From a virus: a stretch of DNA of 25,500 bases. The position numbers were made by a program, and so were the translations under genes. The notes under the pieces were generated by a model. The model was not told the origin of the DNA. It saw nothing but the letters and a program-made list of their open reading frames with translations, and did not search any database. Below are positions 1 through 25,197 of the stretch, piece by piece. The stretch's first letter is position 1. Each line of letters begins with the position of its first letter. The stretch is from IMG/VR virus record IMGVR_UViG_3300028197_000141, positions 1 through 25,500 of that record, one strand, 5' to 3'.

Positions 1-505
1 ATTCATTAGTTGTAGAAGCAGCCGCAACTGAATCTACTACTATTGTTACTATTTTATCTTTGGAAGTTTCTCTAACTTTCTCAATGATAGTTTCTGTGAA
101 ATCAAAGATTTGTTCAACCGAATCTGCTGATACATAAAGTAATTTAGAAACGTCAACACCGATTGCTTCTAAAAAATCTCTACTTACTGCAGTCTCTGTA
201 TCAATAAGAACAGCAACACCACCTTGCTTTTGTGTTTCGGCAAGGAGGTGGGCTGATACTAATGATTTTCCTGATTGTTCTAATCCTGTTATTTCAGTTA
301 TTCTACCAACAGGTAAACCACCATAAGGACGATTGGAAACTGCCACATCTAACATAGCACATCCAGTCGATATCCACCCATCTACATTTGTAGGAGCTTC
401 ATCTTCATTAAGAAAAAATGCTACTTTTTGGTCTTTGGATTGTTTATTCAGTTCACCCGCTAGGATGTCTGCAAGATCCAGTTCTTTTACTTTCTTTTTC
501 GCCAT
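1..505 (-). CDS. uvsX: UvsX/RecA-like recombinase (N-terminal part, runs off the window)
   Basis: This is the first 168 residues of a RecA-family strand-exchange ATPase, the T4 UvsX type, which forms filaments on ssDNA for recombination-dependent replication and repair. The Walker A motif GLEQSGKS is at residues 74-81. A DTE motif at 102-104 occupies the place of the RecA catalytic glutamate. A Walker B-like strand, IVTIVVDS, ends at D158-S159. The ATG at 505 gives a lysine-rich start (MAKKKVKEL) and lies 11 bases after the gp32 stop codon, so the two genes are almost certainly cotranscribed; gp32 and UvsX work on the same ssDNA in T4. The C-terminal half lies beyond base 1, so a full-length gene cannot be confirmed. 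RecA versus UvsX naming is by phage context. Confidence 0.88.
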   Translation of the reverse strand, partial: MAKKKVKELDLADILAGELNKQSKDQKVAFFLNEDEAPTNVDGWISTGCAMLDVAVSNRPYGGLPVGRITEITGLEQSGKSLVSAHLLAETQKQGGVAVLIDTETAVSRDFLEAIGVDVSKLLYVSADSVEQIFDFTETIIEKVRETSKDKIVTIVVDSVAAASTTNE

Positions 506-516
506 TAAATTGGTTT

Positions 517-1326
517 TTATTTGTTAAACAAGTCATCAAATGCAGCTGCAACTTCATCAGTTTTCTGAGGTGCGTTAATTTCTGCTTTTGGTTCAGTTGG
601 TTGTGTTGTAGGAGCTGGTGCAGCTTTTGGTTGAGCTAATCCTGCTGATACAGGTTTAGTTTCACCTTCTGCGTTTGGATTTAACCAACCTTCTAATACT
701 GATTTTAATTCATCATAAGATAATTCAGAATATAAATCTGTAATTTCAGTTTGTCCTTCCAATAAACCTTGAACTTTTGATTCATCTGCCGTGATTGGAG
801 ATGTACTTGGTTTAACTCTAATAGTAGTAGTTGGATAACTCGTACCAGCTTCATCAGCTGATTTGTATTCGATTGTTAAATCTCTACCACTTGTCGGGTC
901 TGTGATATCACCATAGTCTGGGTCAGCAATGTATCCAAGAATTTCTTGATATACAGTTTTACCAAATCCCCAAAAACGGATTCCTTCACCTTCTTCACCT
1001 CTTACAATAACAGGTACAAAAGTACGAAGTTTTGGCTCCATAGCTTTCGCTGCTTTCCAATCTTCTTTGTCACCCATTCTTTTTAGTTTATCCGCAAACT
1101 CTACAATAGGGTCTGGTCTACCAAATGATTGTGGTGATAAATAAGTTTTGTTGTTAATGTTATAGTGAAAATACAATTCGATAAATGGATTGTCCTTGTC
1201 GAATTGGTAAGGAGCGATTCTGACTGTATGTTTACCAGGAGTTGGTTTCCATAGGTTATCAGATTTCCTTTGCGTGTTTTGTAGTTTGTTCAGTCTACCT
1301 CTGATTGCGTTAATGTCTAATGCCAT
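517..1326 (-). CDS. 32: gp32-like single-stranded DNA-binding protein
   Basis: A 269-residue protein resembling T4 gp32 (301 residues), which coats ssDNA at the fork and organises replication and recombination proteins. The basic N-terminal segment (NAIRGRLNKLQNTQRK) fits the LAST-type cooperativity arm. The central part, about residues 25-200, is OB-fold-like (GKHTVRIAPY, FIELYFHYNI, IRFWGFGKTVY). A Pro/Ala/Thr-rich linker at about 220-255 leads to an acidic tail ending AAAFDDLFNK, as expected for the partner-binding A domain. No cysteine occurs anywhere, so the zinc site of T4 gp32 is absent. The next gene downstream is uvsX. The 5' leader carries a predicted pseudoknot and a G-poor AU tract suggesting translational autoregulation (separate entries). 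Identification rests on architecture and neighbours. Confidence 0.85.
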   Translation of the reverse strand: MALDINAIRGRLNKLQNTQRKSDNLWKPTPGKHTVRIAPYQFDKDNPFIELYFHYNINNKTYLSPQSFGRPDPIVEFADKLKRMGDKEDWKAAKAMEPKLRTFVPVIVRGEEGEGIRFWGFGKTVYQEILGYIADPDYGDITDPTSGRDLTIEYKSADEAGTSYPTTTIRVKPSTSPITADESKVQGLLEGQTEITDLYSELSYDELKSVLEGWLNPNAEGETKPVSAGLAQPKAAPAPTTQPTEPKAEINAPQKTDEVAAAFDDLFNK

Positions 1327-1362
1327 CTTGTTTAAATTTAATTGTTAATTATTAATTGTTTA
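1327..1362 (-). promoter_or_regulatory. AU-rich, G-poor gene 32 leader (possible gp32 operator)
   Basis: The 36 bases directly before the gene 32 ATG contain almost only A and T, a few C and a single G next to the start codon. UUAAA-type repeats recur. No Shine-Dalgarno sequence is visible. In T4 an unstructured AU-rich leader with UUAAA repeats is the tract onto which gp32 spreads to block its own translation. This leader has the same composition and position; function is inferred. Confidence 0.55.
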
Positions 1363-1396
1363 AGTTTAATTTTTGAGTGCTAAACTAGTAACACTC
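1363..1396 (-). promoter_or_regulatory. Predicted H-type RNA pseudoknot in gene 32 leader
   Basis: On the minus strand, stem 1 pairs GAGTG (1396-1392) with CACTC (1379-1375), extendable by one T-G wobble. Stem 2 pairs AGTTTA (1386-1381) with TAAACT (1368-1363). With the wobble pair counted, the stems abut and could stack coaxially. Loop 1 is 4-5 bases and loop 2 is the A-rich AAAAAT. T4-type phages carry a pseudoknot at the 5' end of gene 32 mRNA that nucleates gp32 binding. Pairing was worked out by eye; no folding energy was computed. Confidence 0.6.
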
Positions 1397-1402
1397 GGTG
1401 TA

Positions 1403-1414
1403 CCTATAAGTATA
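1403..1414 (-). promoter_or_regulatory. Late-promoter-like motif before gene 32
   Basis: The minus strand reads TATACTTATAGG, a variant of the TATATTTATATA motif found before other genes here and close to the TATACTTATATA before the sheath gene. A start about 7 bases downstream would put the predicted pseudoknot almost at the 5' end of the transcript. It could instead be a middle promoter. Confidence 0.4.
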
Positions 1415-1457
1415 AGATTTACCGATTTTCTTACACTTTTTTTGTTAAAGTTATTAA

Positions 1458-1910
1458 CTATTTTGCCCATTTACCAGAAGAAACTAATTGTGCAATTATA
1501 CCATAAACTGATAAGTCTTGAAACGTATCTTCACACGATTCTCCGATGTTATCTTGTTTACCCAAAACTACTAATTGTTTCAACCTTTGAATTTTATCAT
1601 TCATTCTAAACCAAAGACCTGTAAGGGATACTTTCTTCTCTTGTTCTGTTTCTAAATTAGAACCAACAGAAATATTATCTGGTCCATAGTTAGATTGTTT
1701 TAAACAAAACAATTCATATTGAGTGAACATTATTCTTTTGAATTCTGCTGTCATCTCAGGCCATTGCTTTTCCATTTCTAAAACAACCTCTGGATTATCA
1801 AATTTGATAATTTGATCGTATTCAGGTTCTTTTTCAACTTTAGGTTTTACTATGATTGGATTAAAATTGTGATTTTTTGATTTTGTACTAAGTACTTTTT
1901 TTCCTGCCAT
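1458..1910 (-). CDS. DUF1599/Nmad1-like protein (nucleotide-metabolism or base-modification associated)
   Basis: A 150-residue protein with a lysine-rich, probably disordered first 40 residues and a helical domain after that. The domain resembles DUF1599 (Nmad1): KQSNYGPDNI at residues 71-80, GLWFRMNDKIQRLKQL at 98-113 and ESCEDTFQDLSVYGIIA at 124-140. The ED...D spacing in the last helix is like metal-binding residues of all-alpha NTP pyrophosphatases, so action on nucleotides is plausible. Nmad1 has been linked to phage DNA-modification loci, but no modification enzyme is visible in this window. It precedes gene 32, separated by a 131-base regulatory gap, and has its own Bacteroidota-type promoter upstream. 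The family call is from recalled motifs. Confidence 0.6.
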   Translation of the reverse strand: MAGKKVLSTKSKNHNFNPIIVKPKVEKEPEYDQIIKFDNPEVVLEMEKQWPEMTAEFKRIMFTQYELFCLKQSNYGPDNISVGSNLETEQEKKVSLTGLWFRMNDKIQRLKQLVVLGKQDNIGESCEDTFQDLSVYGIIAQLVSSGKWAK

Positions 1911-1946
1911 TTATATTTTATTTAGGTTAAACTTTCATTTGTTATA

Positions 1947-1979
1947 CAAATATACGAAAAGATTTTTATATATCCAAGT
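1947..1979 (-). promoter_or_regulatory. Bacteroidota-type promoter upstream of the DUF1599-like gene
   Basis: On the minus strand, TTG (1977-1975), exactly 20 bases, then TATATTTG (1954-1947), an exact match to the Bacteroidota -7 consensus TAnnTTTG. A-rich sequence precedes the TTG and TCG precedes the -7 element, as in the promoters at 9031 and 9477. The expected start, near 1940, gives a leader of about 30 bases. Confidence 0.65.
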
Positions 1980-2029
1980 CTTTTTTAATTTATTTTAAAA
2001 ATACTTTTGAATATGACAGTCTATTTCGT

Positions 2030-2048
2030 TATCTTTGATGTAAAGATA
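2030..2048. repeat. Inverted repeat TATCTTT-GATGT-AAAGATA
   Basis: A perfect 7-base inverted repeat with a 5-base spacer in the gap between two minus-strand genes. Each arm provides a promoter-like -7 element, TATCTTTG on plus and TATCTTTA on minus. On plus, TTG lies exactly 20 bases before it (2007-2009). On minus, TCG precedes it as in other promoters here, but the -33 base triplet is TAG rather than TTG. It could be an operator or a bidirectional promoter; no T-tract follows, so a terminator is unlikely. Confidence 0.45.
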
Positions 2049-2083
2049 CGAAAAATAAATGGATTAACCTAATGAAAAGTGAA

Positions 2084-2485
2084 TTATTTTTTATTAAATT
2101 CGATTACCTCGAAGATTCTTGTAGAAATTTTCTTAGTTCCTTCTACATTGGTAACGATGATTGAGTTTTTGAATTTATCCCAATCGATAGAAAACTTTTT
2201 ATCTAAAACACCATTATTCTCTTCCTTAACCAATTCGTTTAAGGCATTAATAGTATAAAGAGTATTAGATTGTTTCTTTCTGTGAACTAGTATAGTATTA
2301 GGTAGTGGACTTGATGGAGTATAGTGAGTATCTATATTATATGTAACAAATAGTTCTTCTAGGTTTGCTTTATTCTGTAAAACATAGATATAGTTATATA
2401 CTATATGATATCTTTCACGAATTTCTTGTAAGGTGTTTTTTAATTCTTCCTTATTTGTAAATGTACACAATAGTTGTGTTTGCAT
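2084..2485 (-). CDS. Small conserved phage protein of unknown function
   Basis: A 133-residue soluble-looking protein with no signal peptide or membrane segment. It begins MQTQLLCTFTNKEEL, followed by an amphipathic helix (about residues 11-35), a YNIDTHYTPSSPLPNTILVHRKK segment in the middle that is rich in prolines, and a beta-rich end with TNVEGTKKISTRIFEVIEF. The style suggests a protein conserved in marine T4-like phages, but I cannot name a family or activity. The ATG at 2485 is preceded by AGGGGA at good spacing, and a full late-type motif lies 23 bases upstream, so it is probably expressed late, independently of the large gene before it. Confidence 0.7.
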   Translation of the reverse strand: MQTQLLCTFTNKEELKNTLQEIRERYHIVYNYIYVLQNKANLEELFVTYNIDTHYTPSSPLPNTILVHRKKQSNTLYTINALNELVKEENNGVLDKKFSIDWDKFKNSIIVTNVEGTKKISTRIFEVIEFNKK

Positions 2486-2508
2486 AACCGTCCCCTAATA
2501 ATTGTTCC

Positions 2509-2520
2509 TATATAAATATA
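2509..2520 (-). promoter_or_regulatory. Late promoter-like motif TATATTTATATA (before 2485 gene)
   Basis: An exact copy on the minus strand, followed by GGAACAA; two other copies have AGAACAA and CGAACAA in the same position. It lies 23 bases before the start codon. Confidence 0.6.
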
Positions 2521-2546
2521 AGAAAGTAAAACCAAAGGTCAGTTAT

Positions 2547-2558
2547 GTGATATATCAC
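2547..2558. repeat. 12-base perfect palindrome GTGATATATCAC
   Basis: A perfect palindrome between the stop codon of the 2572-4830 gene and the promoter motif at 2509. It is operator-like in size and symmetry. As a hairpin it would have little loop and no following T-run, so terminator function is unlikely. Confidence 0.4.
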
Positions 2559-2571
2559 CAATTAGAGGTTT

Positions 2572-4830
2572 CTATTTAGAGTCAAAACAATCTTTCATAT
2601 CATCAGACCATTGATATACAGTTTGAAGTTTACCAGTTTTACCAGTTTTGGTTCTCATTACCTTTTGACCAACTTCTATTTTTCTACCATCGGTAGTTAT
2701 AGCAAATACCATTCTCTTACCACCAGTAGTTTTTCCTTTTTGTGAACCACGATTTCCTACTTGTTCTTCAAGAGCTCCTACTTCAAAACGAGATATAAAA
2801 TCATTTTTACTTTCAACATTACCTCCTAAACATCCTTTTAAGGTTTCACCATCAACTGCAAGTCCTCCATGATTAGTTTCGAACATACCAGGATATTTAT
2901 GTACTCCTGTTTGTGAATTAGGGTTTACTGCTTCTAAATGAAATTGTTTAAAAACAGTTGAACCTTCTAAATATGTTCCTAAACCAACATCCTTACCACC
3001 CACTTTTACAGTCTGATTATCTTGTTCTGTAATAAAATCTCGTTGTACTTGTAATGTTCTATTTCTAATATCTTCTAATTTAGAAAATATATCAGGTGCA
3101 CCTCTTTCTATAAATCTACTATTTAGTCTTTCCATTAAGGTTACTTGGTCCTCAGTTGGTTCAACCTCTTTATTATCATCAGCCATAAATTTAAAAAATG
3201 CAGTAAGTGCTTCTGCATCTGTTGCATCTTTTGAAGATACACCATCTGGTAGATATTTTGATATACTCTTAGTAACTACACCATCTTTACTTTTAACACC
3301 AGCACTTTTACCATGGTCAATCCCACCGAATTTAGATAAAGTTGCATTACCATCTTCACTACCATCTGCATTTGTATTGTTTTTTACACTTTTAACGGCA
3401 TCATTAATATCAATATTTTCTAGGAAGAATTTAGCTGGTGCAACTCCTACTTCTTTTAATTCTGATTCTATTTCTTTATTTTTTTCTACTAACTCTTCTT
3501 GGTCTTTTTTTAGTTTATCACCTTGTTCTTTTGTTAGGTTACCATCACTAACTAACTTATCAATATTTTCTTCATTAGCTTTTGCTTCTGCTTTTAAACT
3601 TGATTGTGCAACAATTGCAGATGTACTATCTTTATCAGAATGGAATAAAAGAATCGCTTTATTAGAATCTTTATCAAATACTAAACTTGCAGTATCCGAT
3701 GGGTTATCTCCACCACCACCTGACCTAATTAGTTGTTCAGCTTCTTCTTGTGATATTTCTTCTCCATTTGGACCAATAACTTGTTTATCCTTAATATCGT
3801 TAACCATTGCATCAAATGATGATGAATGTCCATAGTAGTTTTCTATTTTTGAATTTTTGAATCCTCGTTTTTGAGCAGATGCAACACACTTTGTATGTTT
3901 TCTTCTTCCACTCCTTGCAGCTAATAATAGTTTACTATATAATCCTTTATTTTCACCTTCAGGTATTTCTGATGTTTTAACTCCAGTTGCAAGTCCATTA
4001 CCTGTATTTCCGTTTTTTCCTTTACTATTAAATAAAGGGGTATTACCAAATCTGTCTTTTAATACTTTAATTAGTTGTTTATCAGATAAATTTGGGTCTT
4101 CTTCTAACATCTGTGCAACTTCTCCAGATACAACTTCATTTAATAATGAACCTGCATTACCTGGTGCTGGTTTAAATATTACATTACCATTCTTATCAAC
4201 AATCTCTTTAAATCCATATTTAAATGCTTGATTCTTAACTTCGCTATCACCACCTCTATCTATTACTTCTGAACGAGATACTGGAGAGTTTTCTAAATTC
4301 GATGTAGAAATATCATCTCCTTTATTTTTCTTATCTACTCTTGCTTTAAGTTCTTCAGCATTCTTTGCAAAATCAGAACCAGGTTTTACTGCACTACCTT
4401 GTGTAGTTTGAGTATCATCAGTAGTATCAGTTGAATTTCCTTTTGGAGAATCAATTTTTTTCTGAGTTCCTTGAGAACCAACTTCTTTATTTATTGCATC
4501 TCTTTCAGGTGTTCCTTCAGCGGGCAACGCTTTTTCTGCAGCTATTCTACCCGGTGAATCTTTTTTAGTTGTTAGAAGATTTCCAAGAATACCTTCTGTA
4601 TCGTTACCATTTTTATCTCTATATCTAATGGTTCTATTAAGAACTGGATTTTTGAATTTTCGTTCATCTTCTGTAAGAAATTCAAATATTCTTTGTTTTG
4701 CATCAAATTCACCCCATTCTGTAAGAATTTCTGACATGATTGATTGGTGTTCTCTATCATGTATATTAGGAATACCTACTCTAAAAGAAAGTTCGTGTAC
4801 TAGTCTGTGTATAAGTTTAGTGTGATGCAT
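2572..4830 (-). CDS. Large conserved phage protein, probably virion-associated, function unknown
   Basis: A 752-residue hydrophilic protein. The N-terminus, about residues 1-70, is helical and histidine-rich (MHHTKLIHRLVHEL, HDREHQSIMSEILTEWGEFD). A low-complexity Thr/Asp/Gly/Lys stretch follows at about 95-190. A middle region contains RSGRRKHTKC and a compact segment NKAILLFHSDKDSTSAIVAQ, then a long charged coiled coil at about 415-465. The C-terminal third has short motifs (FKQFHLEAVNP, HKYPGMFETNHGG) and a basic end with FAITTDGRKIEVGQKVMRTKTG. I associate this arrangement with large unannotated proteins of marine T4-like phages, but cannot assign an activity. A structural or injected role is only a guess. 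A weak late-like motif overlaps the start region. Confidence 0.75.
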   Translation of the reverse strand: MHHTKLIHRLVHELSFRVGIPNIHDREHQSIMSEILTEWGEFDAKQRIFEFLTEDERKFKNPVLNRTIRYRDKNGNDTEGILGNLLTTKKDSPGRIAAEKALPAEGTPERDAINKEVGSQGTQKKIDSPKGNSTDTTDDTQTTQGSAVKPGSDFAKNAEELKARVDKKNKGDDISTSNLENSPVSRSEVIDRGGDSEVKNQAFKYGFKEIVDKNGNVIFKPAPGNAGSLLNEVVSGEVAQMLEEDPNLSDKQLIKVLKDRFGNTPLFNSKGKNGNTGNGLATGVKTSEIPEGENKGLYSKLLLAARSGRRKHTKCVASAQKRGFKNSKIENYYGHSSSFDAMVNDIKDKQVIGPNGEEISQEEAEQLIRSGGGGDNPSDTASLVFDKDSNKAILLFHSDKDSTSAIVAQSSLKAEAKANEENIDKLVSDGNLTKEQGDKLKKDQEELVEKNKEIESELKEVGVAPAKFFLENIDINDAVKSVKNNTNADGSEDGNATLSKFGGIDHGKSAGVKSKDGVVTKSISKYLPDGVSSKDATDAEALTAFFKFMADDNKEVEPTEDQVTLMERLNSRFIERGAPDIFSKLEDIRNRTLQVQRDFITEQDNQTVKVGGKDVGLGTYLEGSTVFKQFHLEAVNPNSQTGVHKYPGMFETNHGGLAVDGETLKGCLGGNVESKNDFISRFEVGALEEQVGNRGSQKGKTTGGKRMVFAITTDGRKIEVGQKVMRTKTGKTGKLQTVYQWSDDMKDCFDSK

Positions 4831-4833
4831 CTA

Positions 4834-4845
4834 TAGTATAAATAT
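4834..4845 (-). promoter_or_regulatory. Degenerate late-type motif hard against a start codon
   Basis: The minus strand reads ATATTTATACTA, a partial match to TATATTTATATA. It ends only 3 bases before the ATG at 4830. If it is a promoter, the transcript would be leaderless or start inside the gene, so a chance AT-rich match or cotranscription from upstream is about as likely. Confidence 0.2.
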
Positions 4846-5456
4846 TAGTTTGAACAAGTTACCTCATATTCTTCCCAACCTTTAGTTGGTTTTTGATTTG
4901 GAAATACAAATTTTCTACAATTACCATCATTTTCAAAGTAAATATGTTTAGTCATAACACTAGGAACTGCTGCTCCTGTTGGTAAAACTTCATATCCATC
5001 ATTGAATATTAATTCAACTGTAATTGTTAAATTTTGTTCGTCATCCCATATTCTCTCTTCTTGTTCTAACATTCTCCATTCACCTCTGTTTAAATCTTGT
5101 TGTTGTAATGCACAATTTAGATATGCAAAAGTTCCATATAGATTTTCTTGGGTATCTGAAAATGTTGCCGCTGGTGCAAGATGACCTTTATCCCATTGAT
5201 TACGATAGTAATCATGTTTGTTTGATGTAACAACTCCTGGCACAAGGTGGAAATCCATATTTCCTCTATCTACATTTTTAGGTCTGTTTGTTGAAGTATA
5301 AATTAATTTTATTGGTTGTTCCAATATTTCGTTATACCACACCTCAAATACTTCAGTTTCGATGTGAACGTTTTCCCTTAAATCTTGAGCGATTATATCA
5401 GGAGTACCACAACCCATAAAGAGTAGTGATATTAATAGGAATTTTAAATATTTCAT
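4845..5456 (-). CDS. Exported DNA/RNA non-specific endonuclease (NUC1 family), putative lipoprotein
   Basis: A 203-residue protein with an N-terminal signal, MKYLKFLLISLLFMGCG; Cys16 suggests lipidation, though the lipobox FMGC is not ideal. The rest resembles the NUC1/Serratia nuclease family. The catalytic motif appears as DKGHLAP (Asp89, His92; DRGH is usual). It is followed by YLNCALQQQDLNRGEWRMLE, with Asn114 and Asn123 matching the metal-binding asparagine region and Glu131 the family's conserved W..LE. At 203 residues it is near the short end for the family. The enzyme should hydrolyse DNA or RNA outside the cytoplasm. A late-type promoter motif lies 28 bases upstream. Possible jobs are destroying released or competing DNA or recovering nucleotides at lysis. 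The fold call is firm; localisation is likely; role is inference. Confidence 0.82.
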   Translation of the reverse strand: MKYLKFLLISLLFMGCGTPDIIAQDLRENVHIETEVFEVWYNEILEQPIKLIYTSTNRPKNVDRGNMDFHLVPGVVTSNKHDYYRNQWDKGHLAPAATFSDTQENLYGTFAYLNCALQQQDLNRGEWRMLEQEERIWDDEQNLTITVELIFNDGYEVLPTGAAVPSVMTKHIYFENDGNCRKFVFPNQKPTKGWEEYEVTCSN

Positions 5457-5485: not shown

Positions 5486-5496
5486 ATATAAATATA
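5485..5496 (-). promoter_or_regulatory. Late promoter-like motif TATATTTATATA (before nuclease gene)
   Basis: An exact minus-strand copy, 28 bases before the start codon at 5456. It suggests the nuclease is expressed late rather than only by read-through from the sulfotransferase gene. Confidence 0.6.
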
Positions 5497-5503
5497 TGAT
5501 TAT

Positions 5504-6124
5504 TTAGATTATAGTTTTTTTAAACTGTCGTAATCTATGTTTTGGGTTAACCCATTCATTAAATTCAGATATATCCAAATCTAATTTATGTTTATTTAAA
5601 AACTTAGTTATCTTTTTTTTATCACCAGAATATATGTCTTCATACCAATCTATTTCTATATTCAGTTCTTTTGATAATATTTCTAAATTGTTTTTTGACC
5701 TTCCCATCCATTTTTTCCAAAAATTTAAGTCGTAAATTTCTTCACCATATTTTAAAGTTTCTTTATAGGTATATTTTTTATGCCATTGTTTTTTCTTACT
5801 ATTATTTATTTGATATGAATAACTTTCTGCAGCTTCATTTGTGTTTTTTCTTGATAAAAGTATTATTTTATCAAATAGTTTTGAATAATTTTTATAAAAT
5901 TCTATTACATTATCAAAAAGTAAGCTTTTCAAAACATGATTTGAAGGATGAAAAATAAGAGATTTTACAATTACATTATTTTCCGGTATATGATTATAGT
6001 TTATATTTTCCCAAATACCCTCATTAAATGGTTCTCCCATTTTAGTTAGATTCAAACAAGTACCAATAGATTTCAGTAATTGAGTTGAACCGGAACGAGG
6101 AATAGCTACTATTAAAATTTTCAT
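5504..6124 (-). CDS. PAPS-dependent sulfotransferase-like protein
   Basis: A 206-residue P-loop protein. It opens MKILIVAIPRSGSTQL; PRSGST at residues 9-14 is the 5'-phosphosulfate-binding loop of sulfotransferases. LLSRKNTNEAAESYSY, with Arg92 and Ser101, matches the 3'-phosphate-binding motif. These enzymes move sulfate from PAPS to a hydroxyl or amine, often on sugars. The protein is short for the family but has both cofactor motifs. Its acceptor is unknown; phage or host glycans are candidates, and a glycosyltransferase is present at 24199-25197. It starts 3 bases after the stop of the polymerase gene, so they share a transcript. No Shine-Dalgarno sequence is visible. It is very lysine- and asparagine-rich, fitting the local AT content. 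Confidence 0.8.
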   Translation of the reverse strand: MKILIVAIPRSGSTQLLKSIGTCLNLTKMGEPFNEGIWENINYNHIPENNVIVKSLIFHPSNHVLKSLLFDNVIEFYKNYSKLFDKIILLSRKNTNEAAESYSYQINNSKKKQWHKKYTYKETLKYGEEIYDLNFWKKWMGRSKNNLEILSKELNIEIDWYEDIYSGDKKKITKFLNKHKLDLDISEFNEWVNPKHRLRQFKKTII

Positions 6125-18429: not shown

Positions 18430-18441
18430 TATATAAATATA
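18430..18441 (-). promoter_or_regulatory. Late promoter-like motif TATATTTATATA (tape measure/baseplate operon)
   Basis: Exact copy, followed by AGAACAA, 25 bases before the ATG at 18404 and just after the terminator at 18446. It likely drives the operon from the 67-residue gene through the baseplate genes. Confidence 0.65.
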
Positions 18442-19461: not shown

Positions 19462-19473
19462 TATATAAATATA
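19462..19473 (-). promoter_or_regulatory. Late promoter-like motif TATATTTATATA (chaperone gene)
   Basis: Exact copy followed by CGAACAA, 23 bases before ATG 19438 and directly after the terminator at 19491. Confidence 0.65.
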
Positions 19474-22465: not shown

Positions 22466-22477
22466 TATATAAGTATA
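22466..22477 (-). promoter_or_regulatory. Late promoter-like motif TATACTTATATA before sheath gene
   Basis: One base off TATATTTATATA, 42 bases before ATG 22423. The leader carries AAGGAG, the best Shine-Dalgarno sequence seen here. Confidence 0.6.
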
Positions 22478-22832: not shown

Positions 22833-22844
22833 TATATAAATATA
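22833..22844 (-). promoter_or_regulatory. Late promoter-like motif TATATTTATATA (coiled-coil gene)
   Basis: Exact copy, followed by a further TATTAC; 32 bases before ATG 22800. The AT-rich leader has no clear Shine-Dalgarno sequence. Confidence 0.55.
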
Positions 22845-22873: not shown

Positions 22874-24187
22874 CTAACTAACTGTAAATGTTAGTGTACT
22901 TGAGTAGCTACTCAATAACCCATTTGTTGAGTATTGTCTTACTCTTGCATATCTTGTACCAGTTCCAATATCAAACGAATCTCCTATTTCTGTAGTTTGT
23001 AAAAATACGTTTGACCATAATGTTTCATTAACCAATGGTGAAGAAAAATCTGAATTGTTATCTATTTGTACATCGTATACATCATTTGTACCATCTCCGG
23101 TCCAAGATAATTTAAGAGTACCATTTGTCCATACTAATGATGTTGGTGCACTACCACCTGTTTCATCAGAATGTGAATTTCCTCCTTTATTATGAGTTAT
23201 ATACCCATTAACTAAATATGTATCATTTGTTTCAACATCAATTGAAACTATTTCAGTTGTTGAATTAATAGCAACTATAGAAACAACATCAACTTCAGTA
23301 ATATTACCTGAAACTTCTTTTATTAATTTATCGTTTGTATTAATGTTCATCATTTCTTTGAACCTATATTCACTATCACTACCATCCTTTACCAACATTG
23401 GGTGTTCACCAGTTGCAGTTACCTCTCCATCATTTATATTATAAATTCTACTAGCAAATGAATATGTTAAGTTTTCAACAGATACATCTTCTGCAGTTGT
23501 TGATAATGATGTAGCTGACCAATCTAGGAATGTACTTTCATCAGTACCTAATCCTCCGATTGAAAATCCTCTCAACTCATCTCCTTCTTCTAAATCCCCA
23601 ACTTCTATAATAGTACCATCTGAAAGTGTTACAGGTGAATCTACGGTTAAACATAATGCTGCTGAGTTTCCATCATATGAATCTACTGCAAAAACAGTTT
23701 TTCCGATATTTGTATTATATCGTGTTGCGTGGTCATTAAAACCATCATTAAATTTTCCATTAAGTGTATGTGACTGTGCACCTAATAAGGTTGTTTGTGA
23801 ACTTGCTCCTTGTGGGTTTATTGAACCAACTGTAATTACGGCAGTTAAATCTTGATTTGATGCTATACTTAAAAAACCAGCAGTATCTCCTGAAGAATTG
23901 AAAGTTGGAGTTACTGACCAAGTAAAGTTTTGATATCTTGAAGATATCTGTGTAAATTTAGAACCTGCTCCTGAGAAACTCATATCATATGTTTCATTAG
24001 TAGCTTCTACTGCATATGTAAATCCTCCCAAGGTTGAATCTACAGAATCAATTGCATAATCATCTAACTTTACAATAGTTCCTGCTGAACTATTTATTGC
24101 ATTTAATGATACATTCGAACTTTGAGTAATTCCACGTGCTCCTGCTAAACCATTTAAACTGAGTGTATCTCCTGAACTTCTTGCCAT
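22874..24187 (-). CDS. Probable virion protein with an internal Hint (intein-like) domain and a C-terminal Fn3-like domain
   Basis: A 437-residue protein in three parts. Residues 1-178 are Ser/Thr/Gly/Asn-rich and beta-like, as in appendage or decoration proteins. Residues 179-333 match a Hint domain: CLTVDSPVTLSDGT with Cys179 as first residue, VGDLEEGDEL, TGEHPML with the block B Thr259 and His262, and NDTYLVNGYITHN ending in His332-Asn333. No homing endonuclease is inserted. The residue after Asn333 is Lys, not Cys, Ser or Thr, so ordinary splicing is not expected; it is closer to an A-type bacterial intein-like domain. Residues about 347-437 (SLVWTNGTLKLSWTGDG, YARVRQYST) resemble fibronectin type III. 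A late-type motif lies 17 bases upstream. The virion role is inferred. Confidence 0.8.
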   Translation of the reverse strand: MARSSGDTLSLNGLAGARGITQSSNVSLNAINSSAGTIVKLDDYAIDSVDSTLGGFTYAVEATNETYDMSFSGAGSKFTQISSRYQNFTWSVTPTFNSSGDTAGFLSIASNQDLTAVITVGSINPQGASSQTTLLGAQSHTLNGKFNDGFNDHATRYNTNIGKTVFAVDSYDGNSAALCLTVDSPVTLSDGTIIEVGDLEEGDELRGFSIGGLGTDESTFLDWSATSLSTTAEDVSVENLTYSFASRIYNINDGEVTATGEHPMLVKDGSDSEYRFKEMMNINTNDKLIKEVSGNITEVDVVSIVAINSTTEIVSIDVETNDTYLVNGYITHNKGGNSHSDETGGSAPTSLVWTNGTLKLSWTGDGTNDVYDVQIDNNSDFSSPLVNETLWSNVFLQTTEIGDSFDIGTGTRYARVRQYSTNGLLSSYSSTLTFTVS

Positions 24188-24198
24188 GTTGTTGTTTC

Positions 24199-25197
24199 CT
24201 ATATATTATAAATATAAACTAATTCGTCTATCCACTTATCCTTATTTGTGAAATTTTCTTTCATATATGATTTTAAAGATAAGAACCATTGATTCTTTTC
24301 TTCATAAGGAGTATCCGTTAACTCTCTATAAATATCACCAAATTCTTTTTTAGTTGATGCACGATAAGGATAATTAAAATCTTTACACCAAGTTTTGTGT
24401 AAAATTGGTAATTTACCATAATCTACTGCTTCAAATATACCATATCCAAACGGTTCATTATTAAAACATGAATGTGAGATACCCCAATCCATATTATAGA
24501 ATGTATCTCTGTATTCAGACTTATAATGATAAGTTTTCATTTTACGAGTATCCATTTTCAATCCGTTTTTCCAAAGAACATTAAATTCACTTGAATTAGT
24601 GAATACATATGATGGAAGTCCATCTAAGTAACGTGGATTCTTTCTACCTTCACTTCTTGCTGCAAATCCAATTCGTTTTGAATCAGATAATGGTAAGTTT
24701 TGTTTAAATTCGTAAAAATTAGGTATATTTTTGTTTTCTATCAATATATCAAATAAACCAACCCATATAGAATGACTTGATATCTCATTTATTTCAGTTT
24801 CCCATACTGAATCCATATATGGGTGTTGTGCAAATGAACTATCATTTCCCATTGATGATTTTAATATATGATCTACTGAGTTATGTAATATGTTTGAATG
24901 TATTTTGTCTTTATTCTCTACTATTACTTTCATTGGAGTATAATGTCCATGTAATATATTAATTCTTCTTGCTCCGTTACATAATTCTTCAAATTTTTTA
25001 ATATCATCACCATGCCAATGAGCTTCTATTGGAAATTCATAATCTTCATGTCCTTTTGGTTTGTTTCTATGTAAAAGTAGAATAGGTTTTACCTTTAATT
25101 TAGGAGCAATTAACTCCATCCATAAATTTACCCATGTATCAGTACCAGCATTTACCCAAGGGCCACCACCTGTAGTATAATACACATCATATACCAT
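24199..25197 (-). CDS. GT-B-fold glycosyltransferase (GT4-like)
   Basis: A 332-residue protein. The N-terminal half begins DVYYTTGGGPWVNAGTD, a glycine-rich loop typical of GT-B sugar-transferring enzymes. The C-terminal domain has FAARSEGRKNPRYLDGLP, with Arg181 and Lys186 in the usual donor-phosphate position, and NEPFGYGIFEAVDYGKLPIL, where Glu248 and Glu256 form the E-x7-E motif of GT4 enzymes. No signal or membrane segment is present, so it should act in the cytoplasm. Substrates cannot be read from the sequence. Candidates are phage DNA bases, virion proteins or host glycans; the neighbouring genes encode virion-like proteins, which favours virion glycosylation. It starts 4 bases before the end of the preceding gene's stop region and its own last codons contain the next promoter motif. 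Confidence 0.78.
   Translation of the reverse strand: MVYDVYYTTGGGPWVNAGTDTWVNLWMELIAPKLKVKPILLLHRNKPKGHEDYEFPIEAHWHGDDIKKFEELCNGARRINILHGHYTPMKVIVENKDKIHSNILHNSVDHILKSSMGNDSSFAQHPYMDSVWETEINEISSHSIWVGLFDILIENKNIPNFYEFKQNLPLSDSKRIGFAARSEGRKNPRYLDGLPSYVFTNSSEFNVLWKNGLKMDTRKMKTYHYKSEYRDTFYNMDWGISHSCFNNEPFGYGIFEAVDYGKLPILHKTWCKDFNYPYRASTKKEFGDIYRELTDTPYEEKNQWFLSLKSYMKENFTNKDKWIDELVYIYNI
24205..24216 (-). promoter_or_regulatory. Late promoter-like motif inside the end of the glycosyltransferase gene
   Basis: Minus strand TATATTTATAAT, a variant with ten matching leading bases, encoding the enzyme's last residues (YIYN). It is 17 bases before ATG 24187; the leader contains AGGAAAC. Confidence 0.5.

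Follow-up and report, generated by a model that had tools for sequence, protein, structure and literature searches.

A covarying pseudoknot in the gene 32 leader of an uncultivated virus: a putative T4-style autogenous operator

The minus-strand leader of gene 32 in the window (the whole 25,500-nt stretch of viral DNA analysed here) can fold, at −70 to −37 relative to the ATG, into an H-type pseudoknot whose two 6-bp stems abut. The covariation of its stems among relatives indicates that the structure is almost certainly real. Its carriers are uncultivated bacterial viruses of a little-known group, and its layout resembles that of the T4 switch, with a putative T4-style function. The gene 32 pseudoknot is the textbook case of a protein repressing its own translation. 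A 2010 review regarded it as perhaps the sole viral pseudoknot used for self-repression, and urged its study in diverse T4-type phages (PMC3014915). In the literature searched, which left most subscription journals outside, a search for earlier reports of this element returned only the two papers on T4 and RB69 (PMC535899, PMC3014915).

The gene 32 leader, its promoter and its protein

The features of the leader and its surroundings are as follows, with RNA letters given first for the structured parts.

1947-1977, minus strand: candidate early promoter of host type, TTGG-N19-TATATTTG, ahead of the gene preceding gene 32 (tentative)
1408-1438, minus strand: second conserved inverted repeat, AAGTGTAAGA/TCTTATACTT with loop AAATCGGTAAA, overlapping the promoter; its arms covary in relatives
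1414-1405, minus strand: probable phage promoter box TATACTTATA, one of eight exact TATAYTTATA copies
1401-1397, minus strand: ACACC, near the predicted mRNA 5' end (start deduced from the promoter); invariant in class A leaders
1396-1391, minus strand: stem 1, 5' strand, GAGUGU (DNA GAGTGT)
1390-1387, minus strand: loop 1, UACU (TACT), variable in sequence and length among relatives
1386-1381, minus strand: stem 2, 5' strand, AGUUUA (AGTTTA)
1380-1375, minus strand: stem 1, 3' strand, GCACUC (GCACTC), directly adjoining stem 2
1374-1369, minus strand: A-rich loop 3, AAAAAU (AAAAAT), numbered loop 2 in the initial annotation
1368-1363, minus strand: stem 2, 3' strand, UAAACU (TAAACT)
1362-1327, minus strand: AU-rich presumed operator TAAACAATTAATAATTAACAATTAAATTTAAACAAG, 36 nt
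1326-1324, minus strand: gene 32 ATG
517-1326, minus strand: gp32 single-stranded-DNA-binding protein, 269 aa
1405-1414, 2511-2520, 5487-5496, 18432-18441, 19464-19473, 22468-22477, 22835-22844 and 24207-24216, minus strand: the TATAYTTATA copies

Stem 1 comprises six pairs (five Watson-Crick and one U-G) and stem 2 six Watson-Crick pairs, and the absence of bases between them is compatible with end-to-end stacking of the helices. The initial annotation had described two interlocking, abutting stems with an A-rich loop at this place, followed by 36 bases with a single G and UUAAA-type repeats; both descriptions were borne out, with 6 + 6 pairs and four UUAA units.

Pseudoknot-aware folding, which had been proposed as a check, recovered the structure. 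Within the 110-nt leader, the top-scoring pseudoknot had −17.05 (stacking only), compared with −8.4 ± 3.0 in dinucleotide shuffles, and its score was reached by one of 400 shuffles and, in a repeat run, by none of 200. However, 13 sites over both strands of the 25.5-kb window, the gene 32 site included, score equally well, so that energy alone is unconvincing; by this measure the leader pseudoknot is only moderately unusual. As a positive control, the T4 pseudoknot was the best match of the same blind scan (−18.2; 0/200 shuffles as good). Rfam covariance models gave no match in positions 1-4000 of the window at E values up to 5. In the operator, TTAA occurs four times, against an expectation of 1.06 from base shuffles (p = 0.004). 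When pseudoknots were disallowed, the best fold of the window leader was a nested 8-bp stem 1 (GAGUGUUA/UAGCACUC). We rejected it as a real structure because it is not conserved: L050, L055, L056, L070 and L012 retain stem 2 but have lost the additional pairs.

All eight exact TATAYTTATA copies in the window lie on the minus (coding) strand at distances of 19-78 nt from the gene start that follows, and the motif also precedes genes in a 276-kb relative. From this placement of the exact copies just before genes, a phage promoter is very probable, although the motif's total count in the window did not exceed chance when one mismatch was tolerated. The gene 32 leader extends 78 nt after the box and is the longest of the eight, the others being 19-44 nt. 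Since the box ends 8 bases before stem 1, the pseudoknot would lie at the mRNA 5' end; the box at 1414-1405 thus supports the placement made in the initial annotation, with the start deduced from the promoter. The T4 late box TATAAATA is contained in the reverse complement of the commoner TATAYTTATA form. A host-like promoter pattern (TTG, spacer, TANNTTTG) has only two matches in the window, at 1947-1977 on the minus strand and 2007-2037 on the plus strand. These stand back to back in one intergenic gap, and the pattern was not enriched over a reversed-pattern control.

By sequence and modelled fold, the downstream gene product is a true gp32. It passed the cut-off for Pfam gp32 (PF08804, E = 7.8e-12), matched PHROG ssDNA-binding families, and aligned with T4 gp32 in hhalign (E = 2.1e-6). 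A structural model based on an alignment of 40 relatives (mean pLDDT 76) matched the solved gp32 cores of RB69 (2a1k; Z = 13.7, 189 residues) and T4 (1gpc; Z = 13.3, 192 residues), the next unrelated fold reaching Z = 4.8. A PDB search by sequence profile with gp32 returned nothing relevant, whereas this fold search did match. The loss of the zinc-site cysteines suggested earlier was confirmed: the window protein contains no cysteine, as do 219 of the 225 compared proteins, and the remaining six have one. The T4-type zinc site (Zn-binding Cys/His) is therefore absent, and RNA contacts may differ as a result; the gp32 family match is independent of this site. No cultured close relative was found in the phage collection searched with gp32, the nearest being Mel-JY01 (54% identity over 81% of gp32).

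Several other minus-strand genes of the window drew attention. By eye, a 437-aa protein (22874-24187) contains an apparent intein or Hint-type segment (CLTVDSPV ... VNGYITHN), the product of 5504-6124 a sulfotransferase-like P-loop (IPRSGSTQLL), and that of 4845-5456 a motif like that of secreted non-specific nucleases (GHLAPA). The 427-aa protein encoded at 6128-7411 matches just the C-terminal part of the DNA polymerase family PHROG 17 (profile positions 1106-1231) and may be half of a split polymerase.

Covariation and leader classes in relatives

Searches with gp32 yielded more than 300 loci, from which 225 distinct gene 32 leaders were compared. Class A (49 of the 225) has the same pseudoknot as the window, with an operator of 35-42 nt (median 36). 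Its stem 1, GAGUGU/GCACUC in the window, is replaced by GAUUCC/GGAAUC in four contigs and elsewhere by GAGUCU/GGACUC or AAGUGU/ACACUU, and in its stem 2 AGUUUA/UAAACU gives way to ACAGU/ACUGU. When all class A leaders were aligned with MAFFT, L061 and the L184 group were misplaced, and pairs were therefore counted on stem-only sequences cut by structure, a procedure biased towards the structure. In these rows, both-sided compensatory changes occurred in nine of 11 stem pairs (four of six in stem 1 and all five counted in stem 2), as the proposal of a pseudoknot had anticipated for both stems. The paired cells amounted to 96.7%, versus 25-49% once the partner strand was slid, and the covariation score was 0.49; shuffles gave 0.20, and slid strands no more than 0.13.

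Independently of that alignment, the promoter followed by a stem 1 with a changed fifth base was sought in 2.9 million viral contigs, with the 5' strands fixed and the 3' strand free. Seven matches were obtained; five precede gp32, all with the matching 3' change, and the other two are not gene 32 leaders. As these five leaders were already known, the scan tests selection on the 3' strand rather than a new lineage. The class A element was present at most once in each of four relative records searched and, where present, lay before gene 32.

About 50 leaders form class B, with a 5-bp stem 1, the loop AGGANAG, the tail AAAACC and 2 bp of stem 2 left. Five of its seven pairs are compensated and 99.5% of cells paired; in stem 1 the values are four of five pairs and 100%. 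In the remnant of stem 2, GG/CC alternates with AG/CU in three rows, which weakly supports a 2-bp helix. Operator statistics for class B were set aside (just seven leaders, with a poor pattern). The 14 leaders of class C have no pseudoknot (L053, L064-L067, L074, L167, L177, L182, L251, L274, L278, L311 and L316). All share CACACACCGATAAAA, and their gp32 proteins are nearly identical to those of pseudoknot-bearing relatives. More distant relatives carry other hairpins, the region around the 5' end often retaining a structure of some kind. In the freshwater clade L208-L227, AGG loops with ACCU tails seem to be present. Upstream of the phage promoter box, and near a host-type promoter, L189, L199 and L348-L351 have an apparent further H-type pseudoknot (e.g., GGAG/CUCU with GAGACC/GGUUUC).

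On a quick gp32 tree, the leader classes are dispersed among the branches, requiring 17 changes versus a minimum possible of three. Among proteins 98-99% identical in residues 1-215 (the DNA-binding domain), the leader may belong to class A or C, and among those 97-98% identical to class A or B. The pseudoknot is thus not strictly needed by this protein. Either the leaders recombine and gp32 tolerates several forms, or the pseudoknot is inessential to control; the former is consistent with earlier arguments for plasticity in T4 and RB69 (PMC535899).

Proposed function and alternatives

The best reading of the gene 32 leader element, and a fairly probable one, is that of a T4-style autogenous translational operator. 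Transcripts from the phage promoter (1414-1405) would start a few bases before stem 1, and the mRNA 5' end would fold into the pseudoknot supported by covariation. By analogy with T4 and RB69, gp32 in excess of single-stranded DNA would nucleate on the pseudoknot, spread cooperatively over the 36-nt UUAA-rich leader and cover the start site, stopping gp32 synthesis. Counting against this reading, near-identical gp32 proteins occur with and without the pseudoknot, immuto-like outgroup leaders lack it, the zinc site of T4 gp32 is absent, and AU-rich leaders are common among AT-rich phages.

A possible though rather unlikely alternative is that a pseudoknot or hairpin at the 5' terminus shields the gene 32 mRNA from 5'-end decay, with no specific binding of gp32. 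The location at the predicted mRNA 5' end agrees with such a role, as do the variation in sequence and form between classes A and B and in the hairpins of distant relatives, where some 5' structure often persists, and the unusual stability of T4 gene 32 mRNA (PMC3014915). However, the other seven promoter-led leaders of the window are too short for such an element, and a two-stem pseudoknot at a near-fixed 35-42 nt from the ATG exceeds the needs of end protection.

The second inverted repeat raises a further possibility. With its UCGGU loop, it is found in classes A and C and in some class B leaders. The loop (TCGGT, 1425-1421) is complementary to ACCGA (1399-1395) at the foot of stem 1, and this UCGGU/CACCGA pairing could form solely in transcripts that originate further upstream. 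Compared with chance, the pairing reached p ≤ 0.05 in 13 of 13 class C leaders and stood above chance in two thirds of class A; it was not above chance in most of class B, and the window itself gave p = 0.09. A helix across the promoter in every clade was dropped as a candidate, class B including lines without CGGU. We consider it speculative, and on balance unlikely, that the operator is an exchangeable cassette (long in class A, mini with a 2-bp second stem in B, none in C) that is also switched by transcript origin. In that scheme, the UCGGUG loop of a read-through transcript would pair with CACCGA, and RNA from the phage promoter, having no such partner, would be free to form the repressing pseudoknot.

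The occurrence of near-identical gp32 proteins with different leader classes could also mean that some other factor uses the element as its operator, or that the element modulates translation passively, with no protein needed. We regard this as quite improbable, considering that the gene specificity and the layout of a pseudoknot with a UUAA-rich leader match the T4 operator. That the conserved stems act as DNA, within a promoter or replication signal, as the overlap of the second inverted repeat with the promoter might suggest, is very improbable, because stems 1 and 2 covary as interlocked base pairs downstream of the promoter and solely in the gene 32 leader.

About 100 covarying leaders, together with natural losses beside near-identical gp32, constitute a panel for gp32 recognition of its own mRNA. 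They are also suited to asking whether the zinc site matters.

Comparison with T4-type phages

The same blind scan was applied to other T4-type phages. It found the gene 32 pseudoknot of the RB69-like NHEP10 and a strong one in the Klebsiella phage KpnM6E1 (Jiaodavirus), starting 58 nt before the ATG; KpnM6E1 differs from the window in being a close T4 relative with T4-like geometry (4, 1, 7, 0, 5). S-RSM4 gave a strong match, but far upstream (−106). The scan found no convincing pseudoknot in RB49, Pet-CM3-4, L9-6, AbTZA1, PMBT1, F86, S-RIM12, CC2, Yut2, immuto or Mel-JY01, nor was one found in immuto-like outgroup leaders. RB49, which like the window has the gp32 gene of a T4-type phage, thus differs from it in this respect, as published earlier (PMC535899, PMC3014915). 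Several sampled phages that lack the pseudoknot have just 10-70 bases before gene 32.

Since the pseudoknot is missing from most sampled T4-type phages, an independent origin is plausible, at least as likely as inheritance. The initial annotation had proposed that the same control persists here: the pseudoknot, operator, promoter and T4-like size and spacing speak for control of the T4 type, but its persistence is not supported, as most sampled intermediate phages and the close relatives of class C lack the pseudoknot. We saw no sequence similarity between the pseudoknots of the window and T4.

In contrast to T4, T2 and RB69, the window has TATAYTTATA at the 5' edge of the pseudoknot and no evident Shine-Dalgarno sequence, its gp32 is without zinc-site cysteines, and leader classes are exchanged among its close relatives. 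In the same scan, stem 1 has 6 bp in the window versus 4-5 in these phages, stem 2 has 6 versus 7, and loop 1 has 4 nt versus 1. In T4, binding of gp32 is nucleated at the pseudoknot and proceeds from there along the UUAA-rich leader (PMC535899, PMC3014915). The window shares with T4, T2 and RB69 the gp32 gene, an H-type pseudoknot with short loops and zero bases between the stems, a start about 70 nt before the AUG, and an ensuing AU-rich leader of about 36-40 nt with UUAA(A) units (PMC535899, PMC3014915). The positions nearly coincide, the pseudoknot spanning −70 to −37 in the window and −68 to −41 in T4, followed by operators of 36 and 40 nt, respectively.
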